A stretch of 64,000 nucleotides of DNA from Apilactobacillus zhangqiuensis (GTDB lineage Bacteria; Bacillota; Bacilli; Lactobacillales; Lactobacillaceae), in NCBI RefSeq assembly GCF_019656215.1, contig NZ_BPLK01000001.1, positions 124,001-188,000 on the forward strand, read 5' to 3'. Below are positions 5,275-46,501 of this stretch, one piece after another. Position numbers and translations under genes: made by a program. The notes under the pieces were generated by a model. That model was given only the letters and a program-made list of their open reading frames with translations. It made no database searches and was not told where the DNA came from. How positions within the stretch are numbered: position 1 is the first letter of the stretch; every line of letters begins with the position of its first letter.

Positions 5275-8200
5275 ATGTCTTTACAATTTATTTTGGGAAC
5301 CGCTAGCTACGACCATGAAGAAGTCATCGTTGATTCACTGAAAGAATCAATCAATAATCACCCTGATGATGAATTCTTCTATTTAGTTCCAAACCACATT
5401 AAGTTTGAATCCGAAGTGCAAGCTTTAAAGGATTTAAACACCGATAATGAACCAATTTACGCCGAAAGTAAGTTCCAGACTTTCTCCATTACCCGACTTG
5501 TCTGGTATTACATGAAGAATAATCAGGAATACCAAAAGACAAGACTAAGCGACTCCGGTATCAGCATGCTGATCTACCAAATCTTAATCGATCACCAGGA
5601 TGAATTGACCGTTTTTAGGGGTGAAACCGGCCAACCTGGTTTTATTCAAAAATTAGCTCAACAAATCAGTGAAATGCAAGCCGGCCAAATTTCTGCCGAC
5701 AATTTAGAAAAAATCGTCGACAACAACGACAAAATAAACGCTGGATTGCGCGATAAAATGCATGATTTCATCATCATTTACCGCGCTTTTGAGGAACAAA
5801 CACAAGGAATCTACCTATACAAATCAGATGTTTTAAATCTTTTCTGTCGTTTCATCGAAAATGACGAATTAGACCTATCCCACAGTCATTTCTACTTCAA
5901 TGGATTTAACCAATTTACCGCCCAAGAAGCCAAATTGGTGGAATTACTAATCAAGCGCTCCGCTGGGGTCACCATCGGTTTTAACTTGGATCGTAAGTAT
6001 CCTGACGAATTACCACAAGGACCTAACTTATTCTTCCAATCAGCTAAGTGGTATAACCGTTTCTACAACATTGCCCGTGCCAACAACGTTCCCGTGTTGG
6101 TCGATAAAATGGCGAAGAATCTTCGCGTGTCCGATGATTTACACAAACTAGATACATACTGGGCACAATCAACAGGACTGGGCGATATCGACAAGAGCGA
6201 ACTAAGTAACTCTGATAGTATTCAGGTCTATCGTGCTGATAGTCCGTTTGCCGAAGTGGAAAATATTGCCGTCAAGATTCGCCAAATGGTCGCTCATGGT
6301 GGCTACAAATACTCCGATTTCTTAATATTGACTCGTCACTTGGACAAATACCAAAACGTAATCAAACCAGTGTTTAAACTACTCGACATTCCTGCGTTTA
6401 ACGACGTTACCAAATCAATGGAAGACCATCCATTGGTGGAATTAATCGATGCGCTTTTCAGTCTAGAAAATGGTTCTCGTAAGTATCAATATCAAGATGT
6501 AATGCGACTATTGAAGACAGAATTAATGGTCCCAGGTGATGGTAATGGTAACTTTATGAAGACTGATGATTACCGACAATATGTGGCATTAACCGAAAAC
6601 TTGGTACTAAAGAATGGTTATGAAGGTTCTCGTTGGACTCAAAAGGAAGACTGGCAATACGCATGGTTATCAGATAGTGATTTTGGTGTGCAAGCAGATA
6701 AAATGCGTAACATTTCCGGGAAAATTAACGTAATTAGACACTTTATTGGTGATAACTTCCCACCATTCTTCAAGAAGTTGCGAAATGCCAAGACCGGTCA
6801 AGAAGCCGCAGCCACATTATTCCAATTTCTAGTGGACATGGGAGTGGTTAGAAGACTAAAGGAATGGCGTAACGACTCCATCTTAAAGGACAACCTATTG
6901 GATGCTGCACAACCAGAACAGGTATGGCAAACATTCTGTAATTTATTGGACGACTACGTTTCAATCTTAGGTGACCGTGAATTTGTTTCCGACGACTTTT
7001 TGAGTCTTCTTCAAAGTGGATTCTCAGGTGCCAACTACTCACAAATTCCATCAACATTGGACCAAGTTGCCATTTCTGAAAGTGGAATCGTTCAAATGAA
7101 TAATAGAAAAGTGGTCTTCATGATGGGTGCGACCGACGAAGTAATGCCTGATAAGATTACCAATGAAGCACTATTTAGTGACGCGGACCGTGATGATTTG
7201 CGTGACTTCTTTGATGATGACCAATACTTGCGTGAAACTTCTGAAAACCAAATGGCCAACGATCCATTCCTAAACTATCTAGCATTCCTATCAGGTAGTG
7301 AAAAGCTAATCTTTTCCTATAGTTTAGGCGATAGTGACGAATCATCAGTGGCCATTTCACCATATGTTTCCAGAATTGCGGAACACTTTGATATTGATAT
7401 CCAACACATTTCCAGTCATCCTACTGCTGATGCCAAGGATATCTACGAATATGTTGGAACTTATCGTTCAACACTTCGTCACTTAGTTCAAGCCAGCCAA
7501 GATGCCAAAATAAATAACTCTAATTTGGCACCAGCATGGCAATATGTATACAACAAACTAGATCAAAACCTAAACTACCGTGATTTAACCAACAAACTAT
7601 TGGGTGGTTTGGACTACAACAACACACCTACTCAATTGTTGCCAGAAATCGTTACTGGTTTATACGGCGATAAAATCAATACTTCCATCTCTAAGTTGGA
7701 ACAATTTTACAGCAACCCATACGAATACTTCTTGCGCTATGGTTTGAAGCTAAAAGAACGTGATGTCTTTGACTTATCTCCAGCAAGTACCGGTCAGTTC
7801 TATCACGAATCAATGGACCACTTGATGCGCATCGTAAATTCAGAACACATCGACTTGGAAAACTTGGACAAACAAGCAATCAATGAATTGGTTGATACTG
7901 TTGTTGCCAAGATGTTAGAAGATCCAAACGACTTCCAATACACCATCTTGAGCAGTTCTAGTCGAATGAATTACATCAAGAACCAATTGATTAAGACCGT
8001 TAAACACACAATCGAAACCATTCAAAAACAAAGTAAGTACACACCAATGCGTGCGAAAAAGACCGAAATCTCATTCGGTCAAGTTGGTCATAAGGATGAT
8101 TTGAAACCACTTAGTTTTGAATTGCCTAAGAGCAACGAACTAACCACTGCAAAGTTGGTTAACGTTCGTGGTCGAATCGATAGAATCGATTCAATGAATG

Positions 8201-8844
8201 TCGATGGCAAGAACTACCTAGGAATTGTCGACTACAAGTCCAGTGAACGTAAGTTGGACTTCTCACGTGTCTACGACGGAACTTCTATGCAAATGATGAC
8301 CTACATCGATGTGTTAGCGCACAACCTAGGCATCATCGATGAAGAAGAAAAGGCCGCCTTGGCCGGTGCCGTATACATGCACATCTACAATCCTAAGTAC
8401 ACCAAGGATGATTTGAAGAAATCATTTGAAGAAGCGGTATTAAGCAAACAAAAATACCAAGGGATTCTAGTTAACGACGGTGAGTTATTGGATAAGATTG
8501 ATAAGACCATCGCAGATGACAAGTACGGTTCATCCAATGTTTACCCATTGAGAAAGAAAAAGGACGGTAGTTTCTACAAGTCCAGTCCAATCGTGCAACC
8601 TGAAGACTTGGACCTATTGCTATCTCACAACGAGGACCTAATTAAGAAGGCCGGATTGGAAATCTTTACTGGAAATATCGATTTGAAACCAGCGCGCTTT
8701 GGTCAAAACCAAGACGCAATGCAATTTACACCTTATCGTTCAATCATGCAGTTCGATCCGCTATTGAATGAAAACAACTATAGAGACGTGCCTAACTACT
8801 CGTTAGAAGACGTCTTGAAAATGCTAAGGGGGGACAATCAATAA
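5275..8844 (+). CDS. rexB: ATP-dependent helicase/deoxyribonuclease subunit B (RexB/AddB)
   Basis: A 1189-residue subunit of the RexAB (AddAB) helicase-nuclease that processes double-strand ends for RecA-dependent recombination. The N-terminus (FILGTASYDHEE) replaces the Walker A found in classical AddB, as is usual for RexB. The C-terminal nuclease domain is intact: VRGRIDRID followed by GIVDYKSSERK gives the acidic residues and the DYK of the RecB-nuclease fold. The four iron-sulphur cysteines of AddB proteins are not seen, as in the RexB subgroup. Its TAA overlaps the rexA ATG by one base, so the two are translationally coupled. Confidence 0.93.
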   Translation: MSLQFILGTASYDHEEVIVDSLKESINNHPDDEFFYLVPNHIKFESEVQALKDLNTDNEPIYAESKFQTFSITRLVWYYMKNNQEYQKTRLSDSGISMLIYQILIDHQDELTVFRGETGQPGFIQKLAQQISEMQAGQISADNLEKIVDNNDKINAGLRDKMHDFIIIYRAFEEQTQGIYLYKSDVLNLFCRFIENDELDLSHSHFYFNGFNQFTAQEAKLVELLIKRSAGVTIGFNLDRKYPDELPQGPNLFFQSAKWYNRFYNIARANNVPVLVDKMAKNLRVSDDLHKLDTYWAQSTGLGDIDKSELSNSDSIQVYRADSPFAEVENIAVKIRQMVAHGGYKYSDFLILTRHLDKYQNVIKPVFKLLDIPAFNDVTKSMEDHPLVELIDALFSLENGSRKYQYQDVMRLLKTELMVPGDGNGNFMKTDDYRQYVALTENLVLKNGYEGSRWTQKEDWQYAWLSDSDFGVQADKMRNISGKINVIRHFIGDNFPPFFKKLRNAKTGQEAAATLFQFLVDMGVVRRLKEWRNDSILKDNLLDAAQPEQVWQTFCNLLDDYVSILGDREFVSDDFLSLLQSGFSGANYSQIPSTLDQVAISESGIVQMNNRKVVFMMGATDEVMPDKITNEALFSDADRDDLRDFFDDDQYLRETSENQMANDPFLNYLAFLSGSEKLIFSYSLGDSDESSVAISPYVSRIAEHFDIDIQHISSHPTADAKDIYEYVGTYRSTLRHLVQASQDAKINNSNLAPAWQYVYNKLDQNLNYRDLTNKLLGGLDYNNTPTQLLPEIVTGLYGDKINTSISKLEQFYSNPYEYFLRYGLKLKERDVFDLSPASTGQFYHESMDHLMRIVNSEHIDLENLDKQAINELVDTVVAKMLEDPNDFQYTILSSSSRMNYIKNQLIKTVKHTIETIQKQSKYTPMRAKKTEISFGQVGHKDDLKPLSFELPKSNELTTAKLVNVRGRIDRIDSMNVDGKNYLGIVDYKSSERKLDFSRVYDGTSMQMMTYIDVLAHNLGIIDEEEKAALAGAVYMHIYNPKYTKDDLKKSFEEAVLSKQKYQGILVNDGELLDKIDKTIADDKYGSSNVYPLRKKKDGSFYKSSPIVQPEDLDLLLSHNEDLIKKAGLEIFTGNIDLKPARFGQNQDAMQFTPYRSIMQFDPLLNENNYRDVPNYSLEDVLKMLRGDNQ

Positions 8845-11800
8845 TGGAATACACAAAGCCACAAAAAGAAGCCGTTACCGGACATTTTGATGAAAACGTC
8901 CTCGTTTCAGCCTCAGCTGGTTCTGGTAAGACCCGTGTCTTAGTTGATCGTGTTATCAACAAGTTATTAAACGACCGCGTTAACATTGATGAAATGTTAA
9001 TCGTTACCTTTACTAAGGCCGCTGCTAAGGAAATGCGTGACCGTATTCAAAAGGCGTTACAACAAGAATTGAAAAAAGCCACTGACTCTGATGTTAAGGC
9101 GTTTTTAGTTCGTCAATTACGTCGTTTGCCAGTCGCCGATATTTCAACAATGGACTCATTCTGTCAAAAAATCGTCCAAAGTTACTACTACATTATTGAT
9201 TTGGACCCTAACTTTAGACTGTTGGCGGACCAAACCGAAAGTCAAATGCTAAAGGAACAGGTCTGGGATTCAGTTCGTGAAGACCTATACGCCAACGATG
9301 GTGATGGTTTATTTGCGCAGTTGACCGAAAACTTCTCCAATGACCGTTCCGATGATGGTCTAACCGATTTAGTATTTAGAATTTACGATTACGCCAACGT
9401 AAACCGTGACCCAATTGAATGGTTGAAGAATACCACCAAGATTTATGAAATCGATGGGGATGATTTGGTTCATTCCGACTTTTACCAAAACAATCTACTA
9501 CCATTCATTCAAAATGATTTAACACAACAACGTCTATCTTTTGAATCAGCTAAACGAATTGCAGATGAAAACTTGATGGAAAAAGAAGCAGCAGCCGTTC
9601 AAGTCGATATTGATAATATCAACGGTTTATACGATATGTTGCCTGATTCTGATTGGAATGACATCAAGCAAGCCTTTGAAGACGTTAAGTTCAAGGCCTT
9701 CCCGCGTGTTACCAAGGACTATGACGACATTGCTAAGGGACTTCACGACCGCATCAAAGACATTCGTGATAACGCCAAGAAGGCGGTTCAAAAACTCCCC
9801 GATAAGTACTTCGCGTTAAACGAAGAAGAAAACCTTTCAGTAATGAAGGATTCCAAGCAATTAATCGAAAAGTTAATTCAAGTTGTCCTAGCATTCACCG
9901 ATAGCTATCAAAAGGCTAAATTGAAGCGTCACTGTCTAGAATTCATTGATGTGGAACATTATGCCTATGATATTCTATCTGGCTCAGACGGCGAATCTAA
10001 GGCTGTCAGAGTTAATCTCCAAAATCAATATAATGAAATCATGGTCGATGAATACCAAGATAATAACCGTCTACAAGATGCGATTTTATCGACTTTGGCG
10101 AACCCAGAACATAGCAACATGTTCATGGTGGGAGATGTTAAGCAATCCATCTACCGTTTCCGTCTTGCCGATCCATCTATGTTTATCGAACGCATGGACA
10201 GTGATGATTGTCACACCATCGTCCTACCAGATAACTTCCGTTCCGCAGAAAACATCGATGACTTCATCAACTTAGTTTTCACTCAAACAATGGACAAACG
10301 AGTTGGTGAAATTGATTACACCGGGGATGCCAAACTAAAGGCCGGTGCGAAATACTATCCAGACGAATTACAATCTAATGTTGATGTGATGATTTACGAA
10401 AGTAAGGACGATGAAGAAGAACCAATCGACGACCAATTCCAAGTCCAAGACAGTGCACATGGCCAAGTCGAAATGGTTGCCCAAAAGATTAACGAAATGG
10501 TCGAAAAGAAGTTACCAGTGTTTGACCGTGACAAACAAGTGATGCGTCCAATTCAATACTCTGATATCTCAATTATTTCCTCGACTAGAAATAACAACTT
10601 AATCATTTCCGATATCTTTGGTTCATACAACATTCCAGTCCTAATCAATGGAGCGCAAAGTTACTTTAAGACCACTGAAATTCAAATTATGATGTCGATG
10701 TTATCAATCATTGATAATCCATACCAAGACATTCCATTGGTTGCGGTATTGCGTTCACCAATGGTAGGTCTAAACGAAAACCAATTGGCATACTTGAGAA
10801 TTAACCAAAAGACTGGTGATTACTTCAATGCCGTAATTAACTTTTACGATAATTATGAAAACATGGATCATTCCGAATTTGGTGACCAAGTATTCTCACG
10901 TGTAAAGACATTTGTCGAACAATTAAAACACTTCAGAGACGTTGCCCAACAGCATGCGATTGTTGATTTAATCTGGGACATCTACGAAACCACCGGATTC
11001 TTGGATTACGTCGGAGGGATGCCTGCCGGAAGACAACGCCAAGCTAACCTACATGCCCTATACGAACGTGCATATGACTACGAACAAACTAGTTTTAAAG
11101 GATTATTCCAATTCGTTCGTTTCGTGCGTCGCATGCAAGAAAGAAACGAAGACTTGGATGAAGCCAATGCTGATGATAACCAAGATGCAGTATCAGTAAT
11201 GACTATTCATGGAAGTAAGGGACTAGAATTCCCTGTTGTTTTCCTAATGGATGCCTCACATGGTTTCAACAGACAAGACAGCAATAAGGCCTACATCCTA
11301 AATGACCACTTAGGACTAGGAATTACCTACACCGACCCAGAAACTCGAATCAAACAAGATTCATTGCAACGCCAAGTGGTTGGTGCAATCGAAAACCAAG
11401 GATTGTTGGCCGAAGAAATGCGTAAACTATACGTTGCGCTAACCCGTGCGGAACAACAACTATTCATCGTTGGTGCCAGCAAGAATGAAAATAATAGAAC
11501 CAAGGTCATCGATGCCTGGAACAAGGCCGCCAGTGGTGACACCTTATTAGTCGATGCCGCCTTAAGAAGTGGTGCCAAGAGTTACTTAGACTGGATTGGA
11601 CCCGCATTGGTCCGTCATCCTAACTTTAGAAACAAGTTCGGCGACGACGTTACCTATAAAGGTTTAGACGATGATCAGACTAACTTTGATGTCGAATTTG
11701 TGAATGCCAACGACCTAGCTCAACACAGTCCATCAGGCGACAGTGCTGTCAGTGCCAAGTGGTTAAATCACATCGTTGAAAGTGCCAAGAAGATGGTGCC

Positions 11801-12569
11801 AAAGGACATCAATGTTGATGATGTTAATCAGGTCTTGGACTTCACTTATCAAAATCAAGTTGCAACTCATACGACTGCTTATCAATCAGTTTCCGAAATT
11901 AAACGACTATTTGAAGATCCTGATAGCATTCAATTGGGAAATTATGATGAACATTGGCAAGAAAATAATAAGCAAAAGAATATGTACGTCAGCTCTAACT
12001 TCACGGTTCCTAAGTTCATGCAATCAGTTGTCAAACCAAGTGCTGCTGAAGTCGGAACAGCTACCCACTTGTTGCTACAAGAGGTGCCATTGGACCACAA
12101 GCCAGAAGTAGGTGATGTGGTAGGGATGCTCCAACGTTTAGTTGCCGATAAGGTCGTTACCCCAGAAATCGCCGGCTTAATTCAAACCCAAGAGGTTATC
12201 AATGTGTTTGACAGTGAATTGGGACTACAAATGTTAGCTCATCCAGAACGAATTCATCGTGAAGCACCATTCTCGATGCTAATGGATGCTAACCTGGTAT
12301 TCCCTGGTTTTAATGCCGATTCACCAGAAAAAATCCTAATTCACGGGATTATTGATGGTTATATCGAATTAGACGACGAGGTCATCTTGTTTGATTACAA
12401 GACCGACTACGTGCCAAACGATAGTGATAGAAGTATCAATAAGGCTGTTAAGAAGTACAAGGGTCAAATTAACCTATATGCCAAGGCGTTGGAAAATATC
12501 TTGCATAAACCGGTTACCGATAAATTTATCTACCTACTATCAATTAATAAACCAGTCAAAATTAAGTAA
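8844..12569 (+). CDS. rexA: ATP-dependent helicase/nuclease subunit A (RexA/AddA)
   Basis: A 1241-residue UvrD/Rep-type superfamily 1 helicase with a C-terminal RecB-like nuclease; partner of RexB. Walker A is SASAGSGKTRVLVDRV at residues 21-36, motif II is VDEYQDNN, and later helicase motifs include MTIHGSKGLEFPVVF and LYVALTRAEQQL. The nuclease motif near the C-terminus reads GIIDGYIELDDEVILFDYKT. It starts on the last base of rexB and ends at a strong terminator, making a two-gene operon. Besides repair, this enzyme degrades linear foreign DNA and spares Chi-marked chromosome, so it contributes to phage resistance. Confidence 0.95.
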   Translation: MEYTKPQKEAVTGHFDENVLVSASAGSGKTRVLVDRVINKLLNDRVNIDEMLIVTFTKAAAKEMRDRIQKALQQELKKATDSDVKAFLVRQLRRLPVADISTMDSFCQKIVQSYYYIIDLDPNFRLLADQTESQMLKEQVWDSVREDLYANDGDGLFAQLTENFSNDRSDDGLTDLVFRIYDYANVNRDPIEWLKNTTKIYEIDGDDLVHSDFYQNNLLPFIQNDLTQQRLSFESAKRIADENLMEKEAAAVQVDIDNINGLYDMLPDSDWNDIKQAFEDVKFKAFPRVTKDYDDIAKGLHDRIKDIRDNAKKAVQKLPDKYFALNEEENLSVMKDSKQLIEKLIQVVLAFTDSYQKAKLKRHCLEFIDVEHYAYDILSGSDGESKAVRVNLQNQYNEIMVDEYQDNNRLQDAILSTLANPEHSNMFMVGDVKQSIYRFRLADPSMFIERMDSDDCHTIVLPDNFRSAENIDDFINLVFTQTMDKRVGEIDYTGDAKLKAGAKYYPDELQSNVDVMIYESKDDEEEPIDDQFQVQDSAHGQVEMVAQKINEMVEKKLPVFDRDKQVMRPIQYSDISIISSTRNNNLIISDIFGSYNIPVLINGAQSYFKTTEIQIMMSMLSIIDNPYQDIPLVAVLRSPMVGLNENQLAYLRINQKTGDYFNAVINFYDNYENMDHSEFGDQVFSRVKTFVEQLKHFRDVAQQHAIVDLIWDIYETTGFLDYVGGMPAGRQRQANLHALYERAYDYEQTSFKGLFQFVRFVRRMQERNEDLDEANADDNQDAVSVMTIHGSKGLEFPVVFLMDASHGFNRQDSNKAYILNDHLGLGITYTDPETRIKQDSLQRQVVGAIENQGLLAEEMRKLYVALTRAEQQLFIVGASKNENNRTKVIDAWNKAASGDTLLVDAALRSGAKSYLDWIGPALVRHPNFRNKFGDDVTYKGLDDDQTNFDVEFVNANDLAQHSPSGDSAVSAKWLNHIVESAKKMVPKDINVDDVNQVLDFTYQNQVATHTTAYQSVSEIKRLFEDPDSIQLGNYDEHWQENNKQKNMYVSSNFTVPKFMQSVVKPSAAEVGTATHLLLQEVPLDHKPEVGDVVGMLQRLVADKVVTPEIAGLIQTQEVINVFDSELGLQMLAHPERIHREAPFSMLMDANLVFPGFNADSPEKILIHGIIDGYIELDDEVILFDYKTDYVPNDSDRSINKAVKKYKGQINLYAKALENILHKPVTDKFIYLLSINKPVKIK

Positions 12570-12570
12570 A

Positions 12571-12606
12571 AAAATAACCCTGAACATAAGCGTTCAGGGT
12601 TATTTT
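12571..12606 (+). terminator. Terminator of rexBA operon
   Basis: Stem AATAACCCTGAAC / GTTCAGGGTTATT with an ATAAGC-type loop and Ts. Confidence 0.85.
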
Positions 12607-12721: not shown

Positions 12722-12759
12722 AACATTGTGATTAGGTGAACAATGTTGACCTAATTTTT
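12722..12759 (+). promoter_or_regulatory. Overlapping inverted repeats ahead of the aldehyde dehydrogenase
   Basis: Four arms lie in the order A-B-A'-B'. AACATTGT (12722-12729) pairs with ACAATGTT (12740-12747), giving a palindrome whose core TTGTGATTAGGTGAACAA partly fits the Rex operator (TTGTGAA-N4-TTCACAA). ATTAGGTGAAC (12731-12741) pairs with GTTGACCTAAT (12745-12755) with one mismatch and an AAT loop, followed by TTTTT, which looks like an intrinsic terminator. The two pairings exclude each other in RNA. A possible promoter (TAGACA then TATAAG) sits just upstream. Operator, attenuator or both are possible. Confidence 0.45.
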
Positions 12760-12902
12760 AATCAAAAATGGATATTTTCTTTAAAAAAACATAGTGAAAA
12801 TTAATTATTTTATGAATGTCAATGGGTTGAAACCCTTTAATTACACTGATAAAATCAAATTGGAAACGTTATTAGTATCTAAATTAAAGGAGGGCGTTTT
12901 TG

Positions 12903-14279
12903 ATGGTTCAAGTTGATGAAATGATTAACAATTTAGTAGGTAATGCTCACACTGCATTATCTGAATTAGAAAAGTTAGATCAATCAAAGGTAGACTCAAT
13001 TGTAGATGCAATGGTCCAAGCTGGTCTAGATCACAGTGCAGAGTTGGCAAAATTGGCTCATGATGAAACCGGTCGTGGTAACACTCATGACAAGACGATG
13101 AAGAATATTTTTGCTAGTGGTCAAATCGGTAACTTTATTAAGAACCATAAGACTGTTGGAATTATCGACGAAGATGATGAAGCCAAAACAGTTACAATTG
13201 CAGAACCATTAGGGGTGTTAGCTGGTGTTACTCCAGTTACCAACCCAACTTCAACTACTTTATTTAAGGCAATCATTGCGATGAAGACTAGAAACCCAAT
13301 CGTATTTAGTTTCCATCCTCAAGCTTTGAAGTCCTCAATGAAAGCAGCTGAAATTGTATTAGATGCAGCCGTTAAAGCAGGGGCACCAATGAATTCGATT
13401 CAATGGATTAGTGAACCAAGCATTGACGCAACTAATGCTTTGATTCACCACCCTGGTGTTGCAACGATTTTAGCGACTGGTGGACCAGCCATGGTCAAAG
13501 CCGCTTACTCAAGTGGTAAACCCGCATTAGGTGTGGGTCCTGGTAATGCACCATTATATGTTGAAAAGTCCGCAGATTTAGATGCAGCAGTTAAAGATAT
13601 CGTATTATCAAAGACATTTGATAATGGTATGATTTGTGCTACTGAAAACAGTCTGGTAATCGATTCAGCCATCTATGATGACATGAAGAAACGCCTAAGT
13701 GACGCTGGTGTATACTTCATCGCTGAATCAGATCAAGACAAGCTAGCACAAACTATGTTTAACCCTGAAACTGGTGGTGTTAACGGACCAATCGCTGGTC
13801 GTTCAGCTAAGCAAATCGCTGACATGGCCGGAATTGAAGTTCCAGAAGGTACTAAGGTATTGGCCGCTGAACTAACTGAAGTTGGCATTGACCACTTACT
13901 CTCTGGAGAAAAACTTTCACCAGTTGTATCGGTTTACAAGGTAGCTGATTCAGACCATGCATACGATACTCTAGAATCAATCCTAAACTATGGTGGACTA
14001 GGTCACACTGCCGGAATTAGATCAAATGATTCTGACGTGATTACTCAATTCGGCATCAAGATGAAGGCTTGCCGTATCCTAATCAATACTCCTTGCTGTC
14101 TAGGTGGGGTTGGTAGCATCGTTAACGGATTGGAACCTTCACTAACGCTAGGAACTGGTTCATGGGGCTTTAACTCCATTTCACATAACGTTACAGACTT
14201 TGATTTACTCAACCTTAAGAAAATTGCTTACCCACGTAAGAATAGTAACTTTGAAGAACTTATTAAAAAGTATATGTAA
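12903..14279 (+). CDS. Acetaldehyde dehydrogenase (CoA-acylating), stand-alone AdhE N-terminal domain
   Basis: Interconverts acetyl-CoA and acetaldehyde with NADH; cytoplasmic. The 458 residues match the aldehyde dehydrogenase half of bifunctional AdhE: EPLGVLAGVTPVTNPTSTT, the Gly-rich GVGPGNAPLYVEK, and the catalytic Cys at about residue 245 in KTFDNGMICATENS. The protein stops shortly after the domain (SHNVTDFDLLNLKKIAYPRK), so the linker and iron alcohol dehydrogenase domain of AdhE are absent, and a terminator follows directly. ATG 12903 is 8 nt after AAAGGAGGG; a TTG three bases earlier is less well placed. Loss or shortening of adhE is characteristic of fructophilic Lactobacillaceae, which use external electron acceptors instead of ethanol formation. 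EutE-type function in another pathway is less likely, as no microcompartment genes are near. Confidence 0.9.
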   Translation: MVQVDEMINNLVGNAHTALSELEKLDQSKVDSIVDAMVQAGLDHSAELAKLAHDETGRGNTHDKTMKNIFASGQIGNFIKNHKTVGIIDEDDEAKTVTIAEPLGVLAGVTPVTNPTSTTLFKAIIAMKTRNPIVFSFHPQALKSSMKAAEIVLDAAVKAGAPMNSIQWISEPSIDATNALIHHPGVATILATGGPAMVKAAYSSGKPALGVGPGNAPLYVEKSADLDAAVKDIVLSKTFDNGMICATENSLVIDSAIYDDMKKRLSDAGVYFIAESDQDKLAQTMFNPETGGVNGPIAGRSAKQIADMAGIEVPEGTKVLAAELTEVGIDHLLSGEKLSPVVSVYKVADSDHAYDTLESILNYGGLGHTAGIRSNDSDVITQFGIKMKACRILINTPCCLGGVGSIVNGLEPSLTLGTGSWGFNSISHNVTDFDLLNLKKIAYPRKNSNFEELIKKYM

Positions 14280-14280
14280 T

Positions 14281-14313
14281 AAAAAAAGACTAGGCATTGC
14301 CTAGTCTTTTTAT
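14281..14313. terminator. Bidirectional terminator
   Basis: Stem AAAAGACTAGGC / GCCTAGTCTTTT between the convergent aldehyde dehydrogenase and YeiH-type genes. Confidence 0.85.
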
Positions 14314-15335
14314 TATGCATGAATTAATAGCTTGATTAAGATTAGTGCCACGATGGTTTGAATTAGACCAACTGAAACACTGTAGATTGCAAAACGCTTT
14401 CCGGCCTTTAGGAACGCCTTTAAGTTTAGACGTAAACCGATAGCTGCTAATGCGATGATTTCACACCATGAGCTCAATAGGTGAGCGGTGTTACCAACAA
14501 AGGTTGGAAGGTGGAAGAAACTATTTAAGATACAGAAGATTAAGAACCATAGGACGTACCATGGTAGGAAATCAATCTTACCTTTTTTAACTTCTTCTTC
14601 AACTTCTTTTTCGGCATTGGCTAATGCTTCATTCTTAGCATGGATGCGCGCAAATACGGTAACCACAACTACTAACATGATGATTCGCATAATCTTGAAT
14701 AGAGTCGCGAATTGGACGGTAGTTTGGTTAACCATTGTGGCACTGGCGATAACTTGACCAACTGATTGAACGGTACCACCAATCAATGCACCACGTAGCA
14801 TGTCAACATGGCCAAATACCATGGTTCCGATGACTGGAAGAGCTAGCATCATTACTGTTCCCATTAGGTTCACCAATGTGATACTCATACCGGCATCTTC
14901 GTCGGAAGCGTTGATGACTGGTTTGATGGAAGCAATTGCTGATGATCCACAAACCGCATTACCACCGGCCATGCAAAGATAAATTCCTTCACCAAAGTGA
15001 AGCCACTTACCAATCATGATGGCAGCGATAATGGTGATGGCCATTTGGATGATGATGAATAGTAATCCTGACCAGTGTAATTGAATAATGGTTTGGAAAG
15101 TGATGGTAAGACCAAGTAGCATTACTGAGTATTCCAGTAATCGTTTTTCAGCAAACTTGGTACCTGCGCTTAGAACTGGTTGTTTTAAGAAGGTGTTACC
15201 CAACACGATTCCGATTAGGATTGCGATGGTAGCTCCACCGATGTTTGGAATAATAGCTGTAAGAAATTGACTAATAATTGCAATAATAGCTGCAGCTAGA
15301 AATCCAATGGTACGTTTTTTAATCGTATCAATCAT
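14313..15335 (-). CDS. YeiH-family (UPF0324) putative sulfate exporter-type membrane protein
   Basis: 340 residues with about ten hydrophobic segments and the conserved family stretch GNAVCGSSAIASIKPVI followed by a Gly-rich region (RGALIGGTVQSVGQVIASA). The family is annotated as putative sulfate exporters from indirect evidence; the substrate here cannot be read from sequence. AAAGGAGAAA precedes the ATG. It stands alone, convergent with the aldehyde dehydrogenase gene and divergent from the small gene at 15484. Confidence 0.85.
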   Translation of the reverse strand: MIDTIKKRTIGFLAAAIIAIISQFLTAIIPNIGGATIAILIGIVLGNTFLKQPVLSAGTKFAEKRLLEYSVMLLGLTITFQTIIQLHWSGLLFIIIQMAITIIAAIMIGKWLHFGEGIYLCMAGGNAVCGSSAIASIKPVINASDEDAGMSITLVNLMGTVMMLALPVIGTMVFGHVDMLRGALIGGTVQSVGQVIASATMVNQTTVQFATLFKIMRIIMLVVVVTVFARIHAKNEALANAEKEVEEEVKKGKIDFLPWYVLWFLIFCILNSFFHLPTFVGNTAHLLSSWCEIIALAAIGLRLNLKAFLKAGKRFAIYSVSVGLIQTIVALILIKLLIHA

Positions 15336-45139: not shown

Positions 45140-46501
45140 ATGAAAGTGATAGTTGTTGGTTCTTCACACGGTGGATATGAAGCCGTTCGTGGAATGCTTT
45201 TGGAAAACCCTGACGCAGAAATTCAATGGTATGAAAGAGGAGATTTCATTTCCTTCCTATCATGTGGTATGGAATTATACCTAGAAGGTACTGTAAAGGA
45301 TGTAAACACAGTTGCTTATGAAACTGTAGATAACGCTGAAAAAGACGGAGTACATGTATTTGTACAACAAGAAATCGCAAGTATTGATGAAAAGAACAAG
45401 TCAGTTCATGTTAAGAACTTAGCAGACGGTTCAGAACGTGATGAAAGTTACGATAAGCTAATCTTAGCTATTGGTGCTACACCACGTCGCCTAGATGTTC
45501 CTGGTAAGGACCTAGAAAACTTATACGCAATGCGTGGCCGTAACTGGGCAATCAAGTTAAAACAAAAGATGGTAGATCCTGATCTAAAGCATGTTTTTGT
45601 TATCGGTTCAGGTTACATTGGAATCGAAGCCGCTGAAGCATTTGCTAAGGCAGGAAAGGAAGTTACTATTGTAGACCACAACCCTCGTCTATTAGGTAAT
45701 TACCTAGATTCAGAATTCACTGACAAATTAACTCAAGAATTCAAAGAAAACGGCGTTAACTTTGTAGGTAGCGTCAACGTTGCTGAATTCATTGGTAAAG
45801 ATGGTAAGGTTTCAGGCGTTAAGACTGACCAAGGTACTTTCGATGCTGAATTAGTTGTTGAAACTGCCGGTGTTATTCCAAATACTTCATTAGTAGATGG
45901 CTTATTAGACCTAGACGAACGTGGCCGTATCAAGATTGACGAACACCAAGAAACTAGCGTTAAAGATATCTACGCAGTAGGTGACGCAACCAAGGTTCCA
46001 TACGCACCAACTGGTGAATTATCATCAATCGCTCTAGCATCCAACGCACGTCGTCAAGGACGTACCGCTGCTGCTAACGCTGCCGGAAGAGAACTAAAGA
46101 TGACTGCCGTTTCAGGTTCATCAGCTCTTTCAGTATTCAACTACCACTTTGCTTCAACTGGGGTTAAACAAGATACTCAAGAAAAATGTGGCGTTAAGGG
46201 TGCCGAATCAGTACTAATTGAAGACTGGGCAGTTCCTCCATTCGTATCAGAAGAAGCCGGAAATGCTAAGGTTTACTTCAAGATTACTTTTGATCCAACT
46301 GATGGTCGTATCTTAGGTGGCCAAATCATGTCTACTAGAGACGTGACTGCAAACATCAACACTATCTCATTTGCAATTCAACAACATGCAACTGTATATG
46401 ATTTAGCATACGCTGACTTCTTCTTCCAACCAGGTTTCGACCGTCCTTGGAACATCATGAACGAAGCTGCACAAGCTGCCGTAAGAAAAATCAACAAGTA
46501 A
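45140..46501 (+). CDS. NADH oxidase (water-forming, NADH peroxidase/CoA-disulfide reductase family)
   Basis: 453 residues of the flavin disulfide reductase fold. FAD-binding GSSHGGYEA at the N-terminus, redox Cys42 in SFLSCGME, NAD-binding VFVIGSGYIGIEAAEAF, and the FAD loop DIYAVGDATKVPY. It reduces oxygen to water with NADH and regenerates NAD+. In a cell whose acetaldehyde route lacks the alcohol step this can be the main NADH sink. A peroxidase or CoA-disulfide reductase role is the alternative in this family. TAGGAGG precedes the ATG; own terminator. Confidence 0.9.
   Translation: MKVIVVGSSHGGYEAVRGMLLENPDAEIQWYERGDFISFLSCGMELYLEGTVKDVNTVAYETVDNAEKDGVHVFVQQEIASIDEKNKSVHVKNLADGSERDESYDKLILAIGATPRRLDVPGKDLENLYAMRGRNWAIKLKQKMVDPDLKHVFVIGSGYIGIEAAEAFAKAGKEVTIVDHNPRLLGNYLDSEFTDKLTQEFKENGVNFVGSVNVAEFIGKDGKVSGVKTDQGTFDAELVVETAGVIPNTSLVDGLLDLDERGRIKIDEHQETSVKDIYAVGDATKVPYAPTGELSSIALASNARRQGRTAAANAAGRELKMTAVSGSSALSVFNYHFASTGVKQDTQEKCGVKGAESVLIEDWAVPPFVSEEAGNAKVYFKITFDPTDGRILGGQIMSTRDVTANINTISFAIQQHATVYDLAYADFFFQPGFDRPWNIMNEAAQAAVRKINK

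Follow-up and report, generated by a model that had tools for sequence, protein, structure and literature searches.

Genomic accounts of fructophily in lactic acid bacteria usually invoke the loss of adhE, and the gene for an AdhE consisting of the acetaldehyde dehydrogenase (ALDH) half only is cited as evidence that this loss follows a fixed order, domain by domain. The gene itself is already known as the 458-aa 'partial AdhE' of Apilactobacillus from Maeno 2021 and Konno 2024. In the account of Maeno 2021 (PMC7871557), A. micheneri, A. quenuiae and A. timberlakei carry a 458-aa ALDH-only gene, A. kunkeei is alike, A. apinorum is given as having none, and A. ozensis has both a 458-aa and an 877-aa form. 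Konno 2024 (PMC11269746) inferred from presence/absence data and gene trees that adhE is lost domain by domain, the alcohol dehydrogenase (ADH) domain going first, proposed aldehyde removal as the role of ALDH-only proteins, and reported that species with a complete adhE acquire ALDH-only genes at a high rate. Ten species of the Apilactobacillus-Fructilactobacillus clade have been described as lacking the ADH domain only (PMC11577768).

The gene analysed here is ordinary for its genus of bee- and flower-associated bacteria. It agrees in length, domain and genus with the partial AdhE of A. kunkeei, A. micheneri, A. quenuiae and A. timberlakei and with the short AdhE of A. ozensis (PMC7871557; Maeno 2016 as cited there), and no difference was seen in the protein itself; however, Maeno 2021 reads it as a 'partial deletion of adhE', whereas the gene order described below points to a separate, old copy. 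With the Lactobacillaceae ALDH-only fragments of Konno 2024 (PMC11269746) it has in common the descent from AdhE, a conserved active site, the expected loss of spirosome contacts and the proposed function in aldehyde removal, but where that study infers domain-wise loss in Apilactobacillus, we find a paralogue at another locus and the old site empty. The history is better told as that of an old stand-alone copy plus the loss of a whole adhE gene than as that of an AdhE cut in half, a reading that differs from the published inference for Apilactobacillus that the ADH domain was lost first. If the ALDH-only gene is indeed an older paralogue from elsewhere, Apilactobacillus lends no support to an order of domains, the full gene having left in one piece, and the question moves from a 'relic' to the role of a retained, selected stand-alone acetaldehyde dehydrogenase. 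No report of an empty adhE site was found in the open-access literature searched; in Konno 2024, the words 'synten' and 'neighbor' are absent from the main text (PMC11269746).

The window, that is, the whole stretch of DNA analysed, comprises 64,000 nucleotides of Apilactobacillus zhangqiuensis, whose genome (G000; 1.44 Mb, 99.9% complete) belongs to the kunkeei group of Apilactobacillus (genus g1 in our sample). On its forward strand, an intact open reading frame extends from an ATG at 12903 to a TAA at 14277–14279 (12903–14279) and encodes 458 aa; it has a good ribosome site, with AAAGGAGGG standing before its start. Domain, model, structure, tree and motif data identify the product as an ALDH-only AdhE paralogue and, by homology, an acetylating acetaldehyde dehydrogenase. 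Aldedh is its single Pfam family (E <= 0.001), and residues 8–454 align to the ALDH half of bifunctional AdhE (PRK13805 / NF010378; structures 6ahc and 6tqh), which additionally has an ADH half with an Fe-ADH domain, both missing from the window protein: it stops where full AdhE continues via '..KLPRVYF' into the ADH half. The motifs FDNGMIC, with its Cys, and GGxGHT, which we take to be catalytic in the ALDH half, are present, and the Cys and His motifs are retained in all 23 of the aligned rows shown.

Upstream on the same strand lie addB (5275–8844; best model addB_Gpos, with a score under the model cut-off) and addA (8844–12569), which encodes a subunit of the AddAB helicase-exonuclease and in this genus precedes the ALDH-only gene. 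A terminator-like hairpin at 12571–12606, found by the terminator scan, sets addA apart from the ALDH gene. The promoter scan gave a forward-strand pair at 12827–12855 (TTGAAA-17-TAAAAT, TG ahead of the second hexamer), although shuffled sequence yields such pairs about as often (7 found here, 6.5 expected). Immediately behind the gene, as the preliminary description had observed, stands an intrinsic-terminator-like hairpin (14288–14306), GACTAGGC-ATT-GCCTAGTC, with A/T runs on both sides and a perfect 8-bp stem, GACTAGGC/GCCTAGTC, whose computed fold is -17.6 kcal/mol; the consensus terminator scanner does not list it, probably because the A/T runs lengthen the stem. The hairpin separates two convergent genes, the second of which (14313–15335, reverse strand) encodes a Cons_hypoth698/YeiH-like membrane protein scoring under the cut-off of TIGR00698.

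The preliminary description had taken the gene to be of AdhE rather than EutE descent and to cover the ALDH half only, and both points were borne out. The 872-position NCBIfam AdhE model matches the window protein over 11–459 only, with 650 bits, which leaves it under the cut-off of 951 bits for this model (PRK13805 / NF010378). An origin from the EutE or ethanolamine type would find some footing in the similar length and in the 481 bits obtained with TIGR02518, the model for the stand-alone acetylating ALDH (EutH_ACDH); that score is under the cut-off of 620 and lower than the AdhE score, and the rows passing TIGR02518 form the outgroup. The outgroup consists of the ~43% identical rows of G120, G070 and G137, which were excluded from our counts of ALDH-only AdhE; the two of its three rows that were scanned reach 724 and 702 bits. 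Because the window gene is also nested within AdhE in a tree of 97 ALDH-domain rows (quick method), we consider an EutE-type descent practically excluded. The reaction is likely the same as that of the TIGR02518 enzymes, but the lineage is separate.

A search of the window genome for what had been predicted to be missing, a full adhE or an iron-type ADH, turned up neither: the Fe-ADH domain PF00465 was found in 0/1 (the control domain in 13/14), and the window protein has no second match in its own genome at E <= 0.001, hence no full adhE was found. An Fe-ADH match in another genome of the genus (G008) was rejected as AdhE, since it matches glycerol dehydrogenase above the cut-off. Across the genus, an ALDH-only frame is present in 13 of the 15 other genomes searched. 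The two without it are G005 and G007; the latter is counted as absent, although its absence says little, given a completeness of 86% and an addA contig that ends within addA. At named loci, identity to the window protein is 92–98% in A. kunkeei, A. nanyangensis and A. waqarii and 74–76% in A. micheneri, A. quenuiae and A. timberlakei. Two A. ozensis-like genomes (G012, G014) hold the short gene (69–70% identical) together with a full AdhE (878-codon frame, 61%). In the family sample, 25 of 121 genomes contain an ALDH-only AdhE-type frame, defined as an open frame of <600 codons with >=50% identity. Sixteen of these 25 have a full AdhE as well and nine do not, which indicates that ALDH-only genes more commonly accompany a full AdhE than represent its remains.

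Gene order bears on the fate of the full gene. In two relatives (G028, G088), adhE lies in the order HD-protein, adhE, DUF1836, P-type ATPase, aldo-keto reductase (AKR), with a GntR regulator and phosphoketolase further along in G028 (domains of the neighbouring genes were tested on one member per family). The 792-aa neighbour of the relatives' adhE was considered as the phosphoketolase and rejected: it is the P-type ATPase, and the phosphoketolase is a 796-aa gene further along. DUF1836 also adjoins adhE in G118 and G035; in G030 and G146 the two are no more than about five frames apart. Six of the eight Apilactobacillus genomes fetched (G000, G002, G005, G006, G008, G015) have this site without adhE and with the order otherwise intact, including the phosphoketolase; the gap between DUF1836 and the HD gene is 16–126 bp in these six undisturbed sites. 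Searching the empty sites with three full AdhE proteins revealed no remnant (best E 0.76, in L165), while the control, a stretch carrying the ALDH gene (L221), was matched as expected. In the A. ozensis-like genomes G012 and G014, the old site is occupied by an integrase-domain protein, a small gene and a copper P-type ATPase (L163:10885-14423, L164:10667-14181; domains tested in G014). Both g49 genomes examined (G069, G103) have the ATPase and the HD gene close together with no adhE between them; in G073 and G007 the ATPase marker was not matched, and the old site there was not located.

The ALDH-only gene is found elsewhere: in all 14 genomes of the genus that have it, it lies behind addA on the same strand, at a distance of 0.1–0.4 kb in G000, G006, G008–G010 and G015 and of 5.7–6.5 kb in G014 and G012. 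In G015, which is a single contig, it is ~174 kb from the empty site if the contig is circular. In G005, which has no ALDH-only gene, a DUF2992 gene comes next after addA, ahead of a YeiH-like gene (84% identical to that of the window), and no ALDH remnant was found there. None of nine addA stretches from G005, G007, g49, g53, g43 and g14 contains adhE, the G007 stretch ending inside addA. The neighbours of the ALDH-only gene in g49 and g53 differ from those in g1, from which we conclude that the gene was moved or transferred at least once. A genome with full adhE at the old site plus this ALDH-only gene elsewhere was not seen among those analysed.

These observations bear on the published view that the resident adhE decayed domain by domain, losing the ADH half first, with the ALDH half as an intermediate towards full loss. 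The preliminary description had likewise spoken of an AdhE reduced to one domain, and in the sense of a resident adhE that lost its 3' half this was not supported: the relatives' adhE site is present and empty, and the gene is elsewhere. Besides the inference of Konno 2024 itself (PMC11269746), the domain-wise account can draw on G005, which lacks the gene yet sits among carriers on the rpoB tree, and on genus g5, where the ALDH-only gene is directly beside DUF1836 in G081 and G112 and shortening in place may be real. Those two genomes also serve as a positive control: since the same view detected them, shortening in place would have shown up at the sites fetched from the clade of the window gene, where no short gene occupies the relatives' adhE site. 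Six undisturbed sites with neither adhE nor a remnant, the coexistence of both forms in G012 and G014, and a pattern of selection unlike decay (described below) leave this account distinctly improbable for Apilactobacillus.

How old is the short lineage? Short rows are spread over several clades of the tree of 97 ALDH domains. In a careful tree of 49 rows, the clade of the window gene unites 17 ALDH-only rows from g1, g49 and g53 with a support of 100/100. These three genera are also united (92/92) in an rpoB tree of 29 genomes, whose order within g1 agrees with that of the ALDH tree. G073, of genus g53, is basal in the ALDH tree but groups with g49 in the rpoB tree (96/94), as a long row in both, so the descent of the ALDH-only gene need not be strictly vertical. 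A constraint that groups the full AdhE of G012 and G014 with the short genes of these two genomes comes at a cost of 109 log units (AU p 1e-5), and one that groups it with the 14 short genes of the genus at a cost of 80 log units (AU p 5e-10), for groups that were chosen after the tree was seen. The rejection of these groupings indicates that the short lineage predates the genus, a further point at odds with a resident AdhE that was merely reduced. The best sister of the ALDH-only clade in the 49-row tree is the A. ozensis-like full AdhE (93/87), but three alternative sister arrangements, with AU p values of 0.094, 0.062 and 0.060, are not rejected, so the AU tests leave more than one branching order for the nearest full AdhE lineages.

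Truncation could also have occurred before g1, g49 and g53 diverged, with the short gene relocated and the A. ozensis-like lineage later regaining a full adhE by transfer. This sequence of events would suit the position of the full adhE of G012 and G014 away from the old site, which now holds the integrase-domain protein and its companions, and it is not contradicted by the AU tests, which leave the sister group of the A. ozensis-like AdhE unfixed. It needs more steps, though, and the ADH half of the G012/G014 AdhE occupies a separate branch beside g14, g43 and G020 (91/86); the 32 rows include no close donor. Such a branch of its own fits retention, being about where vertical descent would place it, and we regard the regain by transfer as unlikely.

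We therefore favor, with a probability of roughly 0.72, the reading that the ALDH-only gene goes back to an old duplicate of adhE, and that the loss of the full gene, as a whole, came later. The duplication would have preceded the split of Apilactobacillus from g49 and g53; the duplicate would have kept only the CoA-acylating acetaldehyde dehydrogenase half and been inherited and selected since. We infer that the ancestor also possessed the full gene, beside DUF1836 and the phosphoketolase, and that it departed in one piece, while A. ozensis-like genomes would have retained a full adhE in a different position.

What, then, does the retained enzyme do? Values of dN/dS are 0.051–0.091 in 11 pairs of ALDH-only genes, compared with 0.022–0.087 in five pairs of whole full AdhE genes, which places all 11 ALDH-only pairs under strong purifying selection. 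Judged from the low dN/dS and the conserved Cys and His motifs, the enzyme very likely works. Its most likely role is the conversion of acetaldehyde to acetyl-CoA. It would operate without spirosomes, mainly in the direction acetaldehyde + NAD+ + CoA to acetyl-CoA + NADH. For the A. kunkeei enzyme, a reverse (oxidative) reaction has been reported, as cited in Konno 2024 (PMC11269746). ALDH activity in extracts is given as 89 mU/mg for A. quenuiae, as weak ('> 1') for A. micheneri and as 0 for A. timberlakei (PMC7871557). Since phosphotransacetylase (Pta) is encoded in 16 of 16 genomes of the genus, acetyl-CoA could proceed through this enzyme and feed acetate formation, and the NADH would pass to oxygen, fructose or pyruvate. 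Such a setting, with oxygen or fructose as electron acceptor, had been suggested in the preliminary description and agrees with the literature on the genus (PMC7871557). The NADH oxidase proposed there at 45140 is a flavoprotein of the NADH oxidase/CoA-disulfide reductase type (45140–46501, forward strand): the H2O-forming Nox model (NOXase_Strep) is indeed its best match, but at 376 bits it is below the cut-off of 600. Deoxyribose-phosphate aldolase was considered as a source of acetaldehyde and is unlikely, as PF01791 was found in 0/16 genomes of the genus (control 13/14).

The opposite direction would yield a split ethanol pathway, in which acetaldehyde, formed from acetyl-CoA by the ALDH-only enzyme, is reduced to ethanol by a zinc-type AdhP. 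The window genome encodes four zinc-type (PF08240) genes, one of which, on G000 contig 2, matches AdhP (PRK09422) with 534 bits against a cut-off of 344, its nearest solved structure being 4eez, Alcohol dehydrogenase 1. The earlier statement that no alcohol dehydrogenase remains is thus right for the iron type and wrong for the zinc type, even though extracts of all three Apilactobacillus species assayed are reported to show an ADH activity of 0 (PMC7871557). Within the genus, AdhP occurs in 14 of 16 genomes, and its distribution coincides with that of the ALDH-only gene (14/14 with it, 0/2 without it: G005 and G007); AdhP directly adjoins full adhE in G099 and G063, all of which would befit a partnership. 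However, one of the two genomes lacking both genes is the 86% complete G007, and only two of the four g43 genomes with both genes show the adjacency, AdhP being on another contig in G129 and G154. AdhP is moreover unspecific, with matches in 63 of 121 family genomes, and G103 (g49), which has the ALDH-only gene, is not among these 63; this breadth and the two different AdhP surroundings within the genus weaken the case for a specific partner. The genomes of the three species without ADH activity in extracts (G008–G010) all carry AdhP, and a strong ethanol route would remove the need for electron acceptors that fructophilic lactic acid bacteria show on glucose (PMC7871557). A split ethanol pathway is therefore quite improbable.

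It is tempting to speculate that the ALDH-only gene made the loss of adhE tolerable: together with AdhP, Pta and NADH-consuming enzymes, it might burn the ethanol and acetaldehyde of nectar yeasts to acetate, with a gain of ATP and with oxygen or fructose as acceptors, and the full adhE, running the opposite way, would then have been lost whole several times. We offer this scenario as a doubtful one.

Several minor observations accompany these genes. A flavocytochrome c-type gene follows AdhP in tandem (L232:4926-7434 on G000 contig 2) in 8/8 genomes of the kunkeei group and G015 taken together and in 0/6 of the others fetched. The AdhP of the window genome is 84% identical to that of G069 (g49) and 75–76% identical to those of micheneri- and ozensis-like genomes, a pattern of sequence identity that hints at transfer. 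The DUF1836 gene accompanies adhE or the ALDH-only gene in several genera (L099:5093-5638, L100:7684-8214) and remains in Apilactobacillus where adhE is gone (L158:7441-7938, on G000 contig 4); it may be a regulator of the adhE locus. Next to the full adhE of G014 is a gene for a protein of 339 aa that carries an ADP-ribosyltransferase exoenzyme domain (L032:9951-10970). Genus g53, represented by G073 (L071), may be Nicoliella, for which a putative aldehyde dehydrogenase gene is reported in N. lavandulae and none in N. spurrieriana (PMC11349052).

Around the ALDH-only gene itself, the gap from addA is 0.33 kb in the window genome (12570–12902) and ~2.5 kb in other kunkeei-group genomes, two reverse-strand frames lying inside it in G002, and in G015 a 2153-aa open frame follows the gene (L072:10298-16759). 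Upstream of its start, TTGTGATTAGGTGAACAA at about 12728–12745 is reminiscent of a Rex operator but fits the consensus poorly, and that assignment was set aside; the stretch is better kept than its flanks in the kunkeei group and is a possible candidate site for a regulator.
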